A stretch of DNA of 38,899 nt from positions 1 through 38,899 of the IMG/VR virus record IMGVR_UViG_3300044511_000044. One strand, written 5' to 3'. This document shows positions 20,872 to 32,837 of this stretch, piece by piece; within the stretch, counting starts at the first letter, position 1, and every line of letters starts with the position of its first letter. The notes under the pieces were generated by a model. It did not search any database, was not told the DNA's origin, and was given only the letters and a program-made list of their open reading frames with translations. The stretch comes from a virus. Position numbers and translations under genes: made by a program.

Positions 20872-21579
20872 GTGGATGACTTACTATATAATGGCATGGA
20901 TAAGAAGACATTACAAAACTTGGTCTCTCGTCATCTAACATGGAGTGCGGTTGTAAGAGAATTAGGCTTGCCGCTTCATGGAGGAAACATAGCCAATGTC
21001 AAAAAGAAAGTTAAGCAATTCGACATTGATACATCTCACTTCGTTGGCAAGAATCATCCGCGCAAGTACACAAAGGAAGTTCTCGAAGAAGCGATTCGAA
21101 AAAGTGTGTCATATTCGGAAATGTGCAAGTGGTTGGGCGTGAAGTGGACAGGAGGACTTCACGCTTATCTTAAGAAGAGAATAAGTGATTACGGCATTGA
21201 CATCGGCCACTTCTTAGGAAAAAAGGCCAACTCTGGGAAACGTCACAAGAATGGGACGAGGAAGAAAACCCCAGCCGAAGTTCTCTGCAAAAGAACAGAA
21301 GGACGAAGAAATTTGGCATACCTACTAAGACGTGCTCTCATTGAGAGTGGCAGATCCTATGTGTGCGAGTCGTGTGGACTTGGAGCCGAGTGGAACGGCA
21401 AGGAATTAGTTCTACAGGTTCACCATAAGAACGGCGACTGGCTTGATGATCGAGCGGATAACTTACGATTCGAGTGTCCTAATTGTCATAGTCAAACCAA
21501 TGGATGGTGCAACTCGAAAGGACTAACCGAGACCACCACAAAACGACTGAACACAGCTAAGTTTAAGAGGTCGAAGTAA
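20872..21579 (+). CDS. HNH endonuclease, probable homing type
   Basis: A 235-residue basic protein starting at GTG 20872, with GGAG five bases upstream. Residues about 15-55 and 70-115 are two related DNA-binding-like repeats, each ending in an I-D-x-x-HF-[VL]-GK step (FDIDTSHFVGK; YGIDIGHFLGK). An intact HNH nuclease domain follows: CESCG at residues 165-169, VHHKNGDWLDDRADNLRFEC from residue 183, then CPNCHSQT. HNH homing enzymes nick or cut specific DNA and spread into gene junctions. The gene lies between two members of the PKD paralog run, and its stop abuts the ATG of the next member. Its codons look more adenine-rich than those of its neighbours, as is common for such elements. Confidence 0.88.
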   Translation: MDDLLYNGMDKKTLQNLVSRHLTWSAVVRELGLPLHGGNIANVKKKVKQFDIDTSHFVGKNHPRKYTKEVLEEAIRKSVSYSEMCKWLGVKWTGGLHAYLKKRISDYGIDIGHFLGKKANSGKRHKNGTRKKTPAEVLCKRTEGRRNLAYLLRRALIESGRSYVCESCGLGAEWNGKELVLQVHHKNGDWLDDRADNLRFECPNCHSQTNGWCNSKGLTETTTKRLNTAKFKRSK

Positions 21580-23431: not shown

Positions 23432-24319
23432 ATGATCATCAGAAAACATCAATCAGGCAATGAGTACATCCGCGCAGGTAATGTGTGGGTGAGGAACTTC
23501 GCCAAAGAGAACGTATCGGCTCTTCAACTGAGTCGCATGTTTGAGCTTACGGACTTCGCCGCTGCATTGAAGAACGAGGAACTGAACAAGAACTTCCCCA
23601 AAATCAGCAACGAAGTCTTGCGTTTCCGACAAGTCGTTATCGTTTCCGATGGCTATGACTTCGAGAAGAAGCACCAATTCGTCAACAAGCTGGCAAAGGA
23701 TGTCTGCATCCTTGCCGTCAACAAAGCCTTGTTGAAGTGGAAGCTGGTGACACCAAAGATTCCCGCCCCCGAGCGCAGAACGATAAATGCCTTCATCTTG
23801 AACAATCCGTATAAGGAGTGCATGTCTTACATGCCCACTCCAGACACCAAATACTTCCCCACCTGCATTGCGTCCACGAGGACGAATCACCGGTTCCTGA
23901 AGCAATACTTGGGCGATGTCTACACATACACCCCGGCATCTGAGGAACGAATGGGGGTCGAGAGTGCTGAGAAGTATTACATCGACGACTATCGTGATCC
24001 CGTGTGTGCCGCGATTGGCCTTGCCCATCAGTTCCGAGCAGAGAAGGTACTTTTGTTGTGCTGCGATGATTCGTTTGAAGAAGACCGGGAATATGCCGTG
24101 CCGCTCAAGAACGGTCTCTGGACATATCCTCAGTTGGTTAGAAGCCAAGAAATCATAGATGCGAACTTGTACTGGCTGACCCATCAAGAGAATCGAAAGG
24201 TCGAGGTCGCAGACTACTCAAGCGGCCCAGAATACAAAAATGCTGCGTATATAAGCAATGAAGAGGAGGCACTTGCATTCTTAAAGAATCAAGAGGAGGG
24301 AACCCCTAATGTCAGCTAA
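23432..24319 (+). CDS. Unknown protein, possible DUF115/MptE-like fold
   Basis: A 295-residue protein starting one base after the previous stop. The central part looks like a Rossmann-type chain: FRQVVIVSDGYDFEKKHQF, then DVCILAVNKALLKWKLV, then YFPTCIASTRTNHRFLKQYL, then AAIGLAHQFRAEKVLLLCCD. This resembles DUF115/6-hydroxymethylpterin pyrophosphokinase-like proteins, in which a strand names a hidden object and a later strand ends in a D. The family includes proteins linked to glycan transfer in bacteria and phages. The match is weak: there is no G-x-GPS loop. If right, it would join the other sugar-related genes in the window. Confidence 0.35.
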   Translation: MIIRKHQSGNEYIRAGNVWVRNFAKENVSALQLSRMFELTDFAAALKNEELNKNFPKISNEVLRFRQVVIVSDGYDFEKKHQFVNKLAKDVCILAVNKALLKWKLVTPKIPAPERRTINAFILNNPYKECMSYMPTPDTKYFPTCIASTRTNHRFLKQYLGDVYTYTPASEERMGVESAEKYYIDDYRDPVCAAIGLAHQFRAEKVLLLCCDDSFEEDREYAVPLKNGLWTYPQLVRSQEIIDANLYWLTHQENRKVEVADYSSGPEYKNAAYISNEEEALAFLKNQEEGTPNVS

Positions 24320-24650
24320 ACGATTGTCTGTTCATGACTTCAAAAATTGGTTGTCTGAACAGAAAGACTTAAGTGAGTTCTTCAACATAGGATTGGACAA
24401 AGAAAATCCCTATGACAAGTATATCGGCAATGAGGTCTACTCGAAGGTATCGGAGCAAAAGCTTCTTGATCGAATCGAAACCGAAGAAGATGCCGAAACT
24501 CTAGTCCGAGAATTCCTTGAGGACGGTGGCACCGTCCTCGGAATCGAAGGGAAGAAAATTCAGATCGAAGTGGAATCGGGTTCTTTCGAAATCCCGAGAT
24601 TCTGCGTTAAGATCCGCAAAGAAGAGGATCAACCACCGCCCGCCCTTTAA
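24309..24650 (+). CDS. Small acidic protein, unknown
   Basis: A 113-residue protein whose start overlaps the previous gene by 11 bases, with GAGGAGGG as a strong ribosome site. It is helical and acidic (FKNWLSEQKDLSEFFNIGLD; IETEEDAETLVREFLEDGG), with a strand-rich C-terminal half ending in Pro residues. Its last 44 bases overlap the 3' end of the converging minus-strand dehydrogenase gene. I do not recognise it. Confidence 0.5.
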   Translation: MSAKRLSVHDFKNWLSEQKDLSEFFNIGLDKENPYDKYIGNEVYSKVSEQKLLDRIETEEDAETLVREFLEDGGTVLGIEGKKIQIEVESGSFEIPRFCVKIRKEEDQPPPAL

Positions 24651-25539
24651 GTTGTTCCCAATCCTTGTCCGGCCTCACATGCAGATTAGTTGACCACGCC
24701 CCATTCATTGTGGGGCACTCAACATTCAGGTTCTCGGCCATCTTCATGATAGCGTTCAAGTCCTTCGGGAAACAAGAACCAGAAAAGCCCTTCTTCCCAT
24801 CTGGTCCCGGCACCGCCCAATGTGACATCCCCAATCTCTTGTCCTTCGTCGCATACTCGATCACCTTGTCATAATCGACATCCATCTTGTCGCATATCTC
24901 TGCGAACTCATTGGCAAACGAGACCTTCACTGCGAGAAAGCAGTTCGTCATATACTTGACCATCTCGGCGATCTCAGAACTTGTCTTGGTGACAGGAATA
25001 CTAGGATAGGCCGTCTCATACATTTGCTTGAGCACGGCGGTCCCCTCGTGAGGGCCTCCGACAATGATTCTATCTTGGTTCTTGAAGTCTTGCACGAAGT
25101 TTCGCTCGGTGAGGAACTCCGGGTTGAAGCAGACGTGGATGTTACTGTGTCTACGGTTTAACTTGAGCGTGGTCCCCGGAATGACCGTGGACTTGATGAC
25201 TACCACGACTCCGTGGCATTGAAGGCGGTCGGCTGCTTCGGCGATCTTGCCGACGACATCTTCGACAATGCTGGTGTTGCAGGAGCCGTCTGGATTCATC
25301 GGCGTAGGGACGCAGACGAAGATCGGACCATCCACCCGAAGCATCATGACGGCATAAGGGTCAATATCCCCGGATTCTGTTACGGGGACAGGAGTGTGTG
25401 TTTGTATGTAGGGTTGATTGGGTCTCTGGACCACCCATCCAGTGGCCTTGTCCCAGCTATAGACTTCGAAGGCATGTCTCATGCCTTCCATGACGGCGGT
25501 TCCGACGAACCCCCGACCAATGATACCAATACTCTTCAT
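24607..25539 (-). CDS. UDP-glucose/GDP-mannose dehydrogenase family protein, short form
   Basis: A 310-residue protein. It has a Rossmann NAD loop GIIGRGFVG (residues 5-13), the FVCVPTPMNPDGS segment, a STVIPGTT strand, the PEFLTERN segment, a central helix EMVKYMTNCFLAVKVSFANE and the catalytic cysteine in GFSGSCFPKD (Cys256). These match nucleotide-sugar dehydrogenases that oxidise UDP-glucose to UDP-glucuronate. Cellular enzymes usually run to 390-450 residues because a C-terminal UDP-binding domain follows; here only 54 residues follow the cysteine, so that domain is missing or very small. The start overlaps the stop of the preceding minus-strand gene (TAATG), so it is the last gene of a coupled cluster. 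The substrate is uncertain because of the missing domain. Confidence 0.85.
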   Translation of the reverse strand: MKSIGIIGRGFVGTAVMEGMRHAFEVYSWDKATGWVVQRPNQPYIQTHTPVPVTESGDIDPYAVMMLRVDGPIFVCVPTPMNPDGSCNTSIVEDVVGKIAEAADRLQCHGVVVVIKSTVIPGTTLKLNRRHSNIHVCFNPEFLTERNFVQDFKNQDRIIVGGPHEGTAVLKQMYETAYPSIPVTKTSSEIAEMVKYMTNCFLAVKVSFANEFAEICDKMDVDYDKVIEYATKDKRLGMSHWAVPGPDGKKGFSGSCFPKDLNAIMKMAENLNVECPTMNGAWSTNLHVRPDKDWEQLKGRAVVDPLLCGS

Positions 25540-25820
25540 TAGAAACCCTCTTTCAGCCAGTTCACTCTGGCCCGCGTGTGTTCAAACATATTGCCGTGCC
25601 CCTGATACATGGGTTCGGCCCATTCCTCATCCAAGTCATAGAAATTAGGATCTGGCTCCATCGGAATGTCTTCTATGTCAATTTCGACTGATTGCCCAAA
25701 TTCTCTGTTCCTAAGAGGTTCGATGATCTGGCGAAAGATCTGATCTTGCAATTCGTGCTCTTTGGCACGAATTGCATTCAGAAAAATAACGTCAGCTATG
25801 CTAGGCATGACGATTGACAC
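25539..25820 (-). CDS. Small protein with VNW-EGF C-terminus, unknown
   Basis: A 93-residue protein. Either GTG 25820, which overlaps the previous stop as TAGTG, or ATG 25808 could be the start. The N-terminal half is helical (FLNAIRAKEHELQDQIFRQI); the middle is acidic (EDIPMEPDPNFYDLDEEW). It ends RARVNWLKEGF, very like the end of the upstream neighbour (ETVNWINEGF). No function is recognised. Its place inside the coupled dehydrogenase cluster suggests that it serves the same process. Confidence 0.6.
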   Translation of the reverse strand: MSIVMPSIADVIFLNAIRAKEHELQDQIFRQIIEPLRNREFGQSVEIDIEDIPMEPDPNFYDLDEEWAEPMYQGHGNMFEHTRARVNWLKEGF

Positions 25821-26209
25821 TAGAATCCCTCGTTGATCCAGTTGACGGTTTCGCCGGGCTCAAGCCCACCCAAGTCTTCCGCCATCTGTGCGGCTAAAGC
25901 ACGCGCGGCCTCCTCGTTCAACATGGCCCGAATGTCCTGTTGACTCTCCATCGTCCACTGCGCTCGAAGCCGTCTTATCTCTGGCAAGTTCATACGTGTT
26001 GCAAACTCCCTGATCTCTTTCCTTAGCAATTCAAGGACTTCTTCCTTCTCCTCGGGACTGGTCTGCATCCTGCGATACTGATCCTCACTCACCAGCACCT
26101 TCGTCCCGAGGCGGTGGCCTCTGTGTTGGGCTGTGATGGCGATGATGTGCTGGAGGGTATCTGTGCAGAAGTAGTCGTGTACCCTTTCGTTGATGAACTC
26201 GTCGGTCAT
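25820..26209 (-). CDS. Small protein with VNW-EGF C-terminus, unknown
   Basis: I start it at ATG 26209, which overlaps the aldehyde dehydrogenase stop as ATGA, giving 129 residues; a longer reading from 26395 lies in another frame of the ALDH gene. It begins MTDEFINERVHDYFCTDTLQ, has a mostly helical charged body (EEKEEVLELLRKEIREFATR) and ends ETVNWINEGF. The same ending is on the next gene. No catalytic motif is visible. Coupling to ALDH suggests a partner or regulator, but this is inference. Confidence 0.6.
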   Translation of the reverse strand: MTDEFINERVHDYFCTDTLQHIIAITAQHRGHRLGTKVLVSEDQYRRMQTSPEEKEEVLELLRKEIREFATRMNLPEIRRLRAQWTMESQQDIRAMLNEEAARALAAQMAEDLGGLEPGETVNWINEGF

Positions 26210-27675
26210 TTCATACCCTGCGCCCAAGTAACCTTGCCGCGCTCGTAGTTGACGGTCACTGCCGTCGTGTGCGTCACGGCCTTCCATGTCGCAGCAGCAC
26301 TGGAGCCGTAGCCGCTCTTCTTCCAACTGGAGAACGGCATGTGTGATTCGGCGGCAATTGAGCCACCGTTGATGTAGATCATGCCAGCCGTGCAACGGTT
26401 GACGATCTCACGGTGTTTCCTGAAGTCGTCCGTAATAACACCGAGGGCCAGCCCATAGTCCGTGTCGTTGTACTTGGCGATCACATCGTCAAGATCGTCG
26501 AACGGAATCAGAGCGACGTGAGGCCCAAAGACCTCTTCCTTAAGGAATCGCTTGTCGCTCCATTCGCACTGATAGACATGCGGCGTTAGGTAGAAGCCCT
26601 TGCGGTTGACGGGCAAGCCTTCAATGAGCACTTTCACATCGGGGTCTGTCTGAGTCAAGATGTTGTACTCGCGGACCCGCTGCATGTGTTCTGCGGAAAT
26701 CAACGGGCCATAGAAGGCGTCGTCATCGGCCATTGGATCGCCGGGATGCACCTTGTCTCGGACACGCTGCACGAAGTCTTCTTTGAACCCCTCGAATACG
26801 TCTCGTTGGACGAAGATGCGACCAGAGGAAACGCACCGCTGACCACTCAGCTTGAACGCTGAAGCGACACACACGTCAAGGGCCAAATCGTGGCTGCCAT
26901 CATTGAACAGAATCGTGGAAGACTTCGAACCACACTCGATGCTGGCAGTCTTGCCGAAGCAGTCGGCACAATGGCGGCGGATGTCTTGGGCAACCTCGGC
27001 GCTTCCGGTGAAGAGGATCACATCTACGCTGCTACGGACCAGTGCGGCTCCTGTGCTGCCATCTCCATGTACGAGATTGAAGACACCGGGAGGGAAGCCC
27101 GCCTCAAGATAGAGTTGCCACGCCATGTCGTTGACCATTGGAGTGAGTTCTGAGGGTTTGTGGACAACAGTATTTCCTTCAAGCAGAGCAGGACCAGCGC
27201 TCCAAAAGCTCCCGATGGCGAAAGGAAAATTCCACGGGCTAATGATAGCCACCACACCACGCGGTTTGCGAATAACATAAGCATCCTTTGTTTCAAGTTC
27301 AGAGGAATAGACCTCGCCAAAGGGCTGACGCCCCATTGCAGCGACGGTCTGGCACATGTGAAGGGCCTCGATGACTTCGGCGTGTGATTCGTTAAGATTC
27401 TTCCCTGTCTCAATCGAGATTACATCCCGAAGGTTCTCATGGTCTCGCTTGATTAGCTGAGCGAGATTGTCGAACAAGTCAGCCCGCTTGATTCGGCTCA
27501 TTCTGGCCCATTCCGGTTGGGCGGCACGGGCGGCGGACACGGCATTGCACACGGTCTCGTTATCAGAGATCGGGAATTGACCGTAGACTTCTTCGTTTGC
27601 TGGGTTGATTGCGTCGAAATGTGGCACTGATTGGTTAATCATCATGCCGTTTATGAAATTCCATCCTGTGTACAT
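26206..27675 (-). CDS. NAD(P)-dependent aldehyde dehydrogenase
   Basis: A 489-residue protein, full length for the superfamily. Visible hallmarks are the SPWNFPFAIG cofactor segment, KPSELTP, the FTGSAEV turn, the general-base glutamate Glu247 in SIECGSKSS (the usual ELGGKS with three changes), the catalytic cysteine Cys281 in SGQRCVSSGR, and EEVFGPHVALIPF with a C-terminal PFSSWKKSGYG. All key residues are present, so it is probably active. It oxidises an aldehyde to an acid with NAD(P)+; the spacing resembles succinate-semialdehyde/betaine-type members, but the substrate cannot be read. AGGAGGG lies 5 bases before the ATG. It heads the part of the minus-strand cluster in which stops and starts overlap. 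ALDH genes are very rare in phages. Confidence 0.92.
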   Translation of the reverse strand: MYTGWNFINGMMINQSVPHFDAINPANEEVYGQFPISDNETVCNAVSAARAAQPEWARMSRIKRADLFDNLAQLIKRDHENLRDVISIETGKNLNESHAEVIEALHMCQTVAAMGRQPFGEVYSSELETKDAYVIRKPRGVVAIISPWNFPFAIGSFWSAGPALLEGNTVVHKPSELTPMVNDMAWQLYLEAGFPPGVFNLVHGDGSTGAALVRSSVDVILFTGSAEVAQDIRRHCADCFGKTASIECGSKSSTILFNDGSHDLALDVCVASAFKLSGQRCVSSGRIFVQRDVFEGFKEDFVQRVRDKVHPGDPMADDDAFYGPLISAEHMQRVREYNILTQTDPDVKVLIEGLPVNRKGFYLTPHVYQCEWSDKRFLKEEVFGPHVALIPFDDLDDVIAKYNDTDYGLALGVITDDFRKHREIVNRCTAGMIYINGGSIAAESHMPFSSWKKSGYGSSAAATWKAVTHTTAVTVNYERGKVTWAQGMK

Positions 27676-27746
27676 GAAACCCTCCTAGATCTGGCATTTT
27701 AGCTACAGAAATGCTTGCTTGCAAGCCTTCTTAACTAAGAGAGTGT

Positions 27747-28109
27747 TTATCCTTTGCCTTTTCTCAGCATGGTCTTCTTAACCTCGCAAGAACTGGTATT
27801 AGCAACCGGTGCTTTCGCATAAGCAGCCATGTGCAAAATTGGGCAGGCACCCATAGGTAAGTCAATGTAACCACGCCCTTTGAGGCGTTCGCGGAGTTCT
27901 TCGAAGTCTGAGGCGGTTTCTACCCACGGCTCGAAGAGCATTCTGTTTTCAAAGATGATTTGCTGGATATTACGCTCCCAGATCTGGGGCAACTTCAAGA
28001 TAGAGAGATCCGTCAGCTTCGACGTTACTATCGACTCGCTCTGAAGCACTGTGATCAGTTTGATCCCCTTCTTGCTCCTGCTCGCCAAATACAAATACAG
28101 CCTCTTCAT
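27747..28109 (-). CDS. Small basic protein, unknown
   Basis: A 120-residue protein. ATG 28109 has AAGGAG at the right distance, and two in-frame stops (TGATGA) stand directly before it, so this start is firm. Its start lies inside the end of the gene from 28230, in another frame, over about 140 bases. The sequence has a helical core (FEELRERLKGRGYIDLPMGA), then CPILHMAAYAKAP and a basic C-terminus (CEVKKTMLRKGKG). No known family is recognised. Confidence 0.6.
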   Translation of the reverse strand: MKRLYLYLASRSKKGIKLITVLQSESIVTSKLTDLSILKLPQIWERNIQQIIFENRMLFEPWVETASDFEELRERLKGRGYIDLPMGACPILHMAAYAKAPVANTSSCEVKKTMLRKGKG

Positions 28110-28881: not shown

Positions 28882-29334
28882 ATGGCAAGAAGATTTACAG
28901 ACGCAGTAGAAAACAGAATAGCTAAGCACTATCAACAAGGATTTAGCCTCCAACAACTAGCTGAGCGGTTCAAGTGCAATAACCGAACAGTGAAGAATGC
29001 GCTCATCAGGCAGAATGTCCAAGTCAGAAGAATGGGCGCACCGTCGAAGGGCGGCAAGCTTCATCTGGCAGGATACATCTACATCAGGCCAGATTCAGAC
29101 GATCCGTTTCACTGTATGGTCAATAGTTCTGGGTATGTTGCACAGCACCGATACGTTCTAGCCAAACATCTGAACCGAGCGTTAGAAAAACATGAGACGG
29201 TTCATCATATCGACGGCGACAGAAAGAACAACGCCATTTCTAACCTTCAACTCCGCTCTTCTTCTCTTGGCCCCGGAGTGGTACATGTTTGTCTAAACTG
29301 TGGGTCGCAGAATATCAAGGCGCTGCATATCTAA
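28882..29334 (+). CDS. HNH endonuclease with N-terminal HTH
   Basis: A 150-residue basic protein. Residues 1-45 form a helix-turn-helix-like segment (GFSLQQLAERFKCNNRTVKN). The HNH core follows: QHRYVLAKHLNRALEKHETV, then HHIDGDRKNN with the paired histidines at residues 108-109, then a zinc-type CLNCGSQNI ending. This is the HNH_3-like layout common in phage free-standing homing endonucleases. The AAAAGGAGAAG site at 28854-28864 is better spaced for a different ATG at 28872, which opens a 17-codon reading frame across the true start; the HNH start at 28882 may thus be reached by coupling. It lies between a glycosyltransferase and a probable virion gene. Confidence 0.85.
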   Translation: MARRFTDAVENRIAKHYQQGFSLQQLAERFKCNNRTVKNALIRQNVQVRRMGAPSKGGKLHLAGYIYIRPDSDDPFHCMVNSSGYVAQHRYVLAKHLNRALEKHETVHHIDGDRKNNAISNLQLRSSSLGPGVVHVCLNCGSQNIKALHI

Positions 29335-31077: not shown

Positions 31078-31302
31078 ATGCCGCAACTGATCAAGCCAAC
31101 AGCTAAGGTTCTTCTGGTTCCCCGAGAGGGCGAACTTGAGATCACTGTGAACATCAACATTACCGTTGATGGCAAGGTCAGTGCCAGCGTAGAGAATGCA
31201 ACCATTTTAAGTGAGGAGCGAGAAATAGAAGAAAAGGCTCCCCACATCATCCCAGACTTCTCGTCTGGACTCAAGCTTAACTTTGGTAAGAAGGAGGGAT
31301 AA
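31078..31302 (+). CDS. Small protein upstream of actin-like gene, unknown
   Basis: A 74-residue protein (KVLLVPREGELEITVNINIT, then acidic and Pro-rich segments, then LKLNFGKKEG). It starts nine bases after the GT9 stop. Its last codons overlap the AAGGAGGG that serves the next gene, 4 bases from that ATG, so the two are probably co-translated. Many actin-like plasmid and phage filament genes have a small neighbouring DNA-binding partner; this one has no clear HTH, so the link is only positional. Confidence 0.55.
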   Translation: MPQLIKPTAKVLLVPREGELEITVNINITVDGKVSASVENATILSEEREIEEKAPHIIPDFSSGLKLNFGKKEG

Positions 31303-31306
31303 CATC

Positions 31307-32320
31307 ATGGCAATTGGATTTGACGTGGGAACCTACAATCTAGTGTGCTGCAAGAGGAATGACAAGGGTGACTTCTTGTACAAAAGGGAAGTCAACGCCT
31401 TCCTCGAAATGCCGCTGGACAACGACTTCGTGTTCAACATGATGAAGATGGCCGGTGTGCCCCTCATCCACCGCGAAGACGCCAACATCGCATACGCCCT
31501 CGGTGAAGCTGCTGTAAACATGGCCTACACCATGACTCAGCTTGACTTGAAGCGACCTATGAAAGACGGTTGCGTCAACCCGAAGGAACAAGACGCCTTC
31601 CAGATCATGAACATTATGGTTCACAGTATGCTGGACGATGTGTCGCATGACAAGCCTGTTTTGTGCTACAGCGTGCCCGCTAACGCCATCAACGCCGAGA
31701 CGGACGCCGACTATCACAGAAAGATCCTTGAGGCTATCTTCAAAGCATTCAAGTCGGACAAGGGCTTCACTGTAGATGCTCGCCCGATCAACGAAGGCAT
31801 GGCTCTGGTGTATGCCGAGCTTAAGGAAAAGATGTTCACGGGCATCGGAGTTAGCTGCGGCGCTGGCATGGTCAACGTCGCCTTCTCGATGTTCGGTGCT
31901 CCTGTCTTCACCTTCTCGCTGGTCAATTCTGGCGACTGGATCGACAAGCAGGCCGCAAAAGCCACAGGCGAAACAGTCACGTACATCAACAAGACAAAGC
32001 AGAAGATTGATCTGAACAAGGAGCCAACCACGCTGGTTGATCGAGCCATCCAGACTCAGTACGAGTTGATGATCGAGAAGACCGTTGGCGGCATCAAGAA
32101 GGGTCTGGAAGCCAATAAGGACAAGAACGCCAAGCTGGAAGCTCCGGTAGACTTCGTAGTCGCTGGTGGAACCGCTTCGCCTCCGGGCTTCGACAAGCTC
32201 TTCGAGAAGCTTCTTCGACAGGCTGGTCTCCCCGTCGAGATAGGCCGCGTTATCCGCCCAGCCGACCCGCTGTACAGCGTGGCCCGTGGGTGCCTCATCG
32301 CCGCCGAAAACGCCCGCTGA
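31307..32320 (+). CDS. Actin/ParM-like ATPase
   Basis: The start ATG 31307 lies 8 bases after AAGGAGGG and gives 337 residues. Actin-fold hallmarks are visible: phosphate-1 loop GFDVGTYN at residues 4-11, the connect segment PINEGMALVYAEL near residues 159-171, phosphate-2 region GIGVSCGAGMVNVAF at 179-193, and the adenosine motif VVAGGTASPPGF at 284-295. In actins and ParM the phosphate-2 loop normally starts with an Asp (D-x-G-x-x-x); here Ser183 takes that place. Such proteins polymerise with ATP and segregate DNA or position cargo. In a phage next to terminase genes it may organise the genome or virions in the cell. Whether it still hydrolyses ATP is open. Confidence 0.78.
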   Translation: MAIGFDVGTYNLVCCKRNDKGDFLYKREVNAFLEMPLDNDFVFNMMKMAGVPLIHREDANIAYALGEAAVNMAYTMTQLDLKRPMKDGCVNPKEQDAFQIMNIMVHSMLDDVSHDKPVLCYSVPANAINAETDADYHRKILEAIFKAFKSDKGFTVDARPINEGMALVYAELKEKMFTGIGVSCGAGMVNVAFSMFGAPVFTFSLVNSGDWIDKQAAKATGETVTYINKTKQKIDLNKEPTTLVDRAIQTQYELMIEKTVGGIKKGLEANKDKNAKLEAPVDFVVAGGTASPPGFDKLFEKLLRQAGLPVEIGRVIRPADPLYSVARGCLIAAENAR

Positions 32321-32335
32321 TCTGTTACGAACAAG

Positions 32336-32376
32336 AACGGCGACACTCCTTTAACACATGAAAGAGTGTCGCCGTT
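32336..32376 (+). promoter_or_regulatory. Hairpin that encloses the HNH start codon
   Basis: A perfect 13-bp inverted repeat, AACGGCGACACTC (32336-32348) with GAGTGTCGCCGTT (32364-32376), has a 15-base loop that holds ATG 32358. There is no ribosome site between the ParM-like stop and this ATG, and no T-run after the stem, so it is not a terminator. The arm continues into the coding sequence (codons 3-7). In a transcript from the upstream gene it would lock the start region. Confidence 0.8.
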
Positions 32377-32837
32377 GTCACAACATCTTGCCGACTAATC
32401 GGTTTGGGCCAAAGAAGGGAACCAAAGACGGCCTGAGACCTATTTGTAGGTCTTGTCATGTTAAAGACAGCATTGAGAGAAGTCGAAAAATACGTCAACT
32501 AACCTTAGAGCATTACGGAGGAAATCCTCCAAAGTGCGCTTGTTGCGGCGAGTCAAACACAGAATTTCTTGTGATTGATCACATCAATGGTAACGGCAAC
32601 AAGCATAGAGAAGAGATTAAGAATTGTCCAATCCATACCCACCTTAAGGCACGCGGTTTTCCAGACGGCTACCGAGTTCTATGTGCCAACTGCAACCATT
32701 CGCTGGGGATCTGGGGATATTGCCCACACCAACTAAATTCAGGTTCAGAAAAAGTATTAAGCTGCTTACATAATGACGAACAGTTAGAGGTAGCTGTTTG
32801 TATGCAATTCAGCGAACAATCGTGTGAATTCATTTAG
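32358..32837 (+). CDS. HNH endonuclease next to terminase
   Basis: A 159-residue protein. An N-terminal zinc ribbon (CRRC at residues 4-7, CRSC at 30-33) is followed by CACCG at 60-64, then FLVIDHINGNGNKHREEI with the D-H pair at residues 74-75, and YRVLCANCNHSLG near residues 105-117. This is the full beta-beta-alpha-metal set of an HNH domain. HNH proteins often flank terminase genes, where some assist packaging cuts, while others are homing elements. The AT-rich codons and the hairpin at the start favour a homing type here. The start codon sits in the hairpin described separately. Confidence 0.87.
   Translation: MKECRRCHNILPTNRFGPKKGTKDGLRPICRSCHVKDSIERSRKIRQLTLEHYGGNPPKCACCGESNTEFLVIDHINGNGNKHREEIKNCPIHTHLKARGFPDGYRVLCANCNHSLGIWGYCPHQLNSGSEKVLSCLHNDEQLEVAVCMQFSEQSCEFI

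Follow-up and report, generated by a model that had tools for sequence, protein, structure and literature searches.

Why a tailed phage carries a full-length aldehyde dehydrogenase (ALDH) in one gene cluster with a UDP-glucose dehydrogenase (UGD)-like protein, and whether the two enzymes serve a common pathway, is the question raised by this locus. The window, i.e. the whole 38.9 kb virus record IMGVR_UViG_3300044511_000044, encodes tape-measure, baseplate-wedge and terminase proteins, which point to a tailed, myovirus-like phage. A minus-strand run at 24607-27675 comprises, in this order, the complete ALDH gene (26206-27675; 489 aa, assigned by gene call, Pfam and the motif GQRC), gene 2 (25820-26209; 129 aa), gene 3 (25539-25820; 93 aa, no family) and the gene of a UGD-like NAD-dependent dehydrogenase (24607-25539; 310 aa).

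Both the gene calls and the junction sequences confirmed that the four genes overlap as had been described. On the minus strand, the ALDH/gene 2 junction reads GGTATGAAATGACC, with the ALDH stop codon TGA lying within ATGA. At the gene 2/gene 3 junction, GGATTCTAGTGTC, the GTG start codon of gene 3 overlaps the gene 2 stop codon (TAGTG), and the gene 3/UGD junction, GGTTTCTAATGAAG, contains TAATG. A Shine-Dalgarno-like GAGGG directly precedes three of the four starts (ALDH, gene 3 and UGD), as judged by consensus match only; the putative ribosome-binding site of ALDH, AGGAGGGTTTC (27676-27690, minus strand), likewise a consensus match only, adjoins its start directly on the 5' side. The location on one strand and the overlapping stop and start codons are those expected of a translationally coupled operon, and the genes are probably cotranscribed. 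Upstream of ALDH, a small conserved minus-strand gene (27747-28109; cluster c29) belongs to the syntenic flank and does not overlap ALDH. At the other end, the UGD-like gene runs with its 3' end into a convergent plus-strand gene (24309-24650).

The ALDH is intact. The statement that all key residues are present held true: N149 (in PWNFP), E247, C281 (in GQRC) and E381/F383 (in EEVFGP) were all found. Pfam Aldedh (PF00171) covers residues 18-470 (3.6e-121; 405 bits, cut-off 23), and this score above the cut-off together with the catalytic Cys, Glu and Asn places the protein in the ALDH superfamily. The reading frame has no internal stops. Since dN/dS was 0.06-0.10 for ALDH and 0.05-0.10 for UGD in the closest pairs of relatives (for the window itself, synonymous sites are saturated), both genes are under purifying selection, and strongly so in the case of ALDH.

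In the preliminary description, an ALDH in a phage was considered very rare. This proved wrong for uncultivated large phages. The initial protein query returned two phage ALDHs with 52% identity, and a GenBank match of 50.5% was found to the ALDH of the 595 kb huge phage LR756511. With a profile built from the first phage relatives, relatives of the ALDH were detected in at least 114 viral stretches of IMG/VR. Many of the other ALDH matches in GenBank entries labelled as phages appear to stem from draft records that contain host DNA. A scan of 84,980 cellular genomes, in which two peptide patterns only were used and a single match is thus weak evidence of absence, gave one match of the phage ALDH profile, on a contig labelled SAR202; searches of Chloroflexota and plasmids support this result only in part. 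The best other match of the profile in 121 Chloroflexota genomes scored 405 bits, and nine of ten ALDHs from phage contigs scored 693-1023 bits. For the ALDH, the phylogeny proposed earlier as a check was carried out by maximum likelihood, with a cellular reference set limited to genes from plasmids and from Chloroflexota, and the phage proteins formed one virus-only clade (support 100/100). When astD and putA were included as long branches, the grouping of phage and haloarchaeal proteins had a support of 82/29; without them, phage and haloarchaeal proteins were separated from the rest with 100/100. The ALDH lineage is best explained as virus-specific, widespread and long resident in large tailed phages.

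These data also bear on whether host DNA could have been joined to the phage by misassembly. Nothing in favour of this was found beyond the cellular character of the ALDH. The genes flanking the cluster in the window (c16 and c29 upstream; c22, c23 and c30 downstream) recur in about 12 other contigs, the clade is virus-only, and the SAR202-labelled contig that holds the sole match in the genome collection has the gene order of the viral contig L072. The region is a genuine phage region, as had been assumed, and misassembly is ruled out by the conserved synteny.

The nearest cellular relatives among those found are haloarchaeal ALDHs with 39-41% identity over the full length, e.g. those of Natrinema versiforme (WP_138247256.1) and Halorussus vallis (WP_253520663.1), which share the GQRC motif and are the neighbours of the phage clade in the tree. 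They differ from the phage proteins in being cellular and located beside proline dehydrogenase and regulator genes, and they are annotated only as ALDH family. Proline dehydrogenase was found near the haloarchaeal ALDH gene in four of the five loci inspected; among these four, a sodium/proline symporter gene lies near two and a proline racemase gene near two. Similarly, a proline dehydrogenase gene lies directly upstream of the best Chloroflexota match.

The window protein scored below the cut-offs of the curated models of three ALDH families. The scores were 230 bits (cut-off 659.65) with TIGR01237 and 252 bits (648) with NF002852 for P5C dehydrogenase, 219.5 bits (730) with NF050084 for P6C/aminoadipate semialdehyde dehydrogenase, and 310.5 bits (668.6) with TIGR01804 for betaine aldehyde dehydrogenase (BADH). 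The name betaine aldehyde dehydrogenase, suggested by the best match, was ruled out because the score is far below the cut-off and BADH has GQVC in place of GQRC. The protein also matched phrog_15577 over nearly the full length (1.2e-79), an entry of unknown function.

In amino-acid semialdehyde dehydrogenases, a basic residue at the position preceding the catalytic Cys would serve the substrate. Arg was found there in 84 of 84 phage loci, which agrees with the GQRC/GQKC motif of P5C/GSA dehydrogenases, and it is common to the phage ALDHs, PutA and AstD, whereas five references (BADH, HMSD, FeaB, PuuC and GabD) have Val, Ala or Thr. The motif marks a broad group, since most Chloroflexota relatives of the phage ALDH have GQRC too. 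The P5C/GSA dehydrogenases of the PutA C-terminal domain/RocA type and AstD have the same ALDH fold, and the reaction proposed here is of the same type; PutA and AstD share the Arg, although they are only 27-29% identical to the phage protein. The ALDH7-type P6C/aminoadipate-semialdehyde dehydrogenase has the Arg as well, and its product would fit some of the neighbouring genes described below, but in the huge phage LR756504 an ALDH7-like protein with 27% identity is encoded by a gene of its own.

When the neighbours of 85 ALDH loci (genes called with a simple script) were clustered, three arrangements were distinguished. Arrangement A, the largest group, located near replication genes, consists of VOC-ALDH with ArgZ-LAT-UGD and/or LysDH. 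Arrangement B, decarboxylase-IF3-c27-HesB-ALDH-UGD-GroES-DnaJ, occurs on contigs of up to 381 kb and is present in part in LR756511. Arrangement C, that of the window clade, is c16-c29-(GT9)-ALDH-small genes-UGD-c22-c23-c30. In 31 of the 85 loci, ALDH is followed within 2.6 kb by a UGD gene on its own strand, and 51 have no UGD gene nearby. The two proteins diverge jointly (Mantel r 0.74, 0 of 2000 permutations), and their pairing exceeds chance. Owing to this linkage and joint divergence, ALDH and UGD can be considered the conserved core of the cluster. The four-gene order thus recurs in other phages as far as these two neighbours are concerned, whereas the small genes between them are not fixed.

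The small genes vary between loci but have in common the C-terminal W-x-x-E-G-F, which in the window reads WINEGF in gene 2 and WLKEGF in gene 3. We considered the tail as merely an embedded Shine-Dalgarno sequence; its codons vary, and in loci L008 and L011 a separate Shine-Dalgarno sequence follows. The middle of gene 2 resembles about 40 aa of the T4 gp23 capsid protein.

Enzymes of amino-acid degradation recur near the phage ALDHs. A LysDH-like gene of the saccharopine-dehydrogenase family, whose closest PDB entry is 3abi, an L-lysine dehydrogenase, lies near ALDH in 43 of the 85 loci. The neighbouring aminotransferase reached 484 bits with the model of L-lysine 6-transaminase, whose cut-off is 521, and matched M. 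tuberculosis LAT with 2e-110; this LAT gene adjoins an arginine-dihydrolase-like (ArgZ-like) gene in 14 of the 85 loci. Proline dehydrogenase was encoded by 12 of 50 ALDH contigs, whereas the 50 phage contigs used for comparison, some 42 of them devoid of ALDH, encode none (Fisher p ~0.001, uncorrected for kinship). The partners need not be adjacent: on the 245 kb contig of L014, the ALDH gene and the genes of the LysDH-like, ArgZ-like and proline dehydrogenase type occupy separate sites, and LAT is distant from ALDH in LR756511 and in the contigs of L003 and L022. Outside the window clade, 59 of 71 contigs, near-copies included, have at least one gene of the LysDH-like, LAT-like, ArgZ-like or proline dehydrogenase type. 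The products of these enzymes all fall into one class, the omega-semialdehydes of amino acids. The case for LAT being a specific partner was weakened by about 35 phage contigs that have LAT without this ALDH, so that LAT alone is weak evidence. No such feeder enzyme was found by our search of the window clade, including a contig of 234 kb, and the function proposed for the ALDH there is thus derived from homology.

The UGD-like protein comprises the N-terminal and central domains of the family, with the profile aligned to position 294 of 413; the C-terminal UDP-binding domain of the canonical three-domain UGD is absent. Its score with the nucleotide-sugar dehydrogenase model TIGR03026 is above the cut-off (193.1 vs 189.8 bits), and the catalytic residues C256, K195, N199, D260, T118, E141 and E145 are invariant in the 18 aligned phage sequences. 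The predicted structure is confident (pLDDT 88), and its neighbours in fold are GDP-mannose and UDP-glucose dehydrogenases. The protein is a member of a phage family of short forms (about 280-320 aa), which lack the C-terminal domain and share a conserved tail around VRPEKDWEQLKGRAV. The annotated UGDs of Bacillus phage SP-15, Synechococcus phage Bellamy and Vibrio phage Kuja share the N-terminal and central domains but are full-length (412-436 aa), whereas the UGD of phage C48C1 is similarly short. In ALDH-free contexts, the short form often lies beside or after genes for a nucleotide-sugar epimerase and glycosyltransferases, which makes a sugar role plausible for the UGD-like protein alone.

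Taken together, the most probable explanation, to which we assign a probability of about 0.6, is a phage metabolic operon whose ALDH would depend on NAD(P) and oxidise an amino-acid semialdehyde and whose coupled UGD-like gene probably serves a glycan. The tree position of the ALDH, the pre-catalytic Arg and the partner genes across phages point to such a semialdehyde; the substrate itself, the direction of the reaction and its benefit to the phage are inferred. The substrate would be an open-chain semialdehyde in equilibrium with its cyclic imine, either glutamate-gamma-semialdehyde/P5C, with proline or ornithine as its source, or else aminoadipate semialdehyde/P6C, derived from lysine, the latter fitting the LAT and LysDH-like neighbours. 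A thioester would be formed on C281, the hydride transferred to NAD(P), and glutamate or aminoadipate then released. In related phages, the substrate may be supplied by a phage proline dehydrogenase, by arginine dihydrolase together with a lysine/ornithine-type aminotransferase, or by a LysDH-like enzyme; in the window clade, its source would have to be the host or an unsequenced part of the phage genome. The UGD-like enzyme would share the transcript of the ALDH rather than its pathway.

The sugar-acid pathway suggested in the preliminary description, in which UGD and ALDH would jointly make a uronate or another sugar acid for a glycan with the nearby glycosyltransferases, fits the UGD gene following ALDH in 31 loci, the glycosyltransferase-9-like genes flanking ALDH in the window clade and the company of epimerases and glycosyltransferases kept by ALDH-free UGD relatives. 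However, UGD forms the uronate without any ALDH, the kin and partners of the ALDH are amino-acid enzymes, no UGD gene lies nearby in 51 loci and no sugar-ALDH family model fits. We therefore consider this pathway unlikely, and the proposed role plausible for the UGD-like protein only. Similarly unlikely is a general detoxification, i.e. a broad ALDH shielding the infected cell from reactive aldehydes without a fixed pathway: the window clade keeps its ALDH without a detected feeder enzyme, as this would predict, but specific partners recur elsewhere in the ALDH clade and the carboxylate-type motif is conserved. In nine loci and also in LR756511, ALDH is preceded at a distance of about 3.3 kb by a decarboxylase-like gene, which hints at a bypass in which an indolepyruvate/pyruvate-decarboxylase-like enzyme would turn a 2-keto acid into an aldehyde for oxidation to the acid and NADH. 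This gene was seen in arrangement B and not in A and C, IF3 and other genes intervene before ALDH, and GQRC fits amino-acid semialdehydes better, which renders the bypass unlikely as well. The ALDH thus probably finishes a route of amino-acid breakdown rather than contributing to sugar-acid synthesis.

Auxiliary metabolic genes have mostly been reported as scattered host captures. No report of this ALDH lineage was found in the open-licence literature searched, and nothing matching phage ALDH, saccharopine dehydrogenase or proline dehydrogenase as auxiliary metabolic genes. The main text of the huge-phage paper (PMC7162821) contains neither 'aldehyde' nor 'dehydrogenase', the ALDH ascribed to Vibrio phage vB_ValR_NF (PMC10196503) is only 231 nt long, and a soil viral ALDH has been reported (PMC9038774).

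The interest of the locus lies not in a lone phage ALDH but in a widespread virus-specific lineage that recurs with amino-acid-degrading enzymes: one deep virus-only enzyme lineage in more than 100 large-phage sequences, with different partners at one metabolic node. Tentatively, and with somewhat less than an even chance in our estimate, it may represent an old virus-specific module of amino-acid catabolism in large tailed phages, including huge ones of about 600 kb, in which interchangeable feeder enzymes would supply one semialdehyde dehydrogenase, so that amino acids of the host would be converted to glutamate or aminoadipate in the infected cell. Confirmation of the activity would give phrog_15577 a role and would mean that big phages fuel infection by an amino-acid breakdown of their own.

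The small proteins encoded between the aldehyde dehydrogenase (ALDH) and the UDP-glucose-dehydrogenase-like (UGD) genes share the C-terminal end W-x-x-E-G-F and are elsewhere dissimilar. These ends lie on the minus strand of the window at 25539-25559 and 25820-25840, and they were also found in the ALDH-UGD interval of the related loci L006, L007, L008, L010, L011 and L015. The DNA pattern of the motif did not occur outside the ALDH-UGD interval in the contigs searched. Part of this DNA would serve also as the Shine-Dalgarno sequence of the following gene, if not in every case. Approximately 40 residues of the gene 2 product (25820-26209, minus strand) and of its relatives, one of which is encoded at L007 6674-7117, resemble the T4 major capsid protein gp23 (E 2.6e-4). 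A capsid-like fragment is located inside a small gene of a metabolic operon.

The group B phages carry a conserved block of genes (L002 4907-6454, L004 4863-6509 and L019 4619-6241) encoding a 2-keto-acid decarboxylase-like enzyme, IF3, a HesB-like protein, GroES and DnaJ. Putative ABC transporter genes for a substrate-binding protein, a permease and an ATPase, as judged by eye, are placed between ALDH and GroES/DnaJ in the huge phage LR756511 (L004 19653-22462). Genes resembling L-lysine aminotransferase are present in about 35 large phage contigs (L204-L262) without a window-type ALDH, the largest of 532 kb. The window also contains, on the plus strand, a putative actin/ParM-like protein gene (31283-32320, assigned by eye; cluster c41), which is conserved across the window clade, and three possibly mobile HNH-type endonuclease genes (20872-21579, 28882-29334 and 32358-32837).

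In the 93.7-kb contig VFHP01000009.1 (L085), which was binned as a SAR202 bacterium, the genes follow the order seen in the viral contig L072, and this contig appears to be phage DNA within the SAR202 MAG. Among the GenBank "phage" records with an ALDH match, many appear to be pieces of host chromosome that were deposited as phage (e.g. CAKLQH020000010.1, OR846789.1 and AGRM01000002.1), by which naive AMG counts would be inflated.
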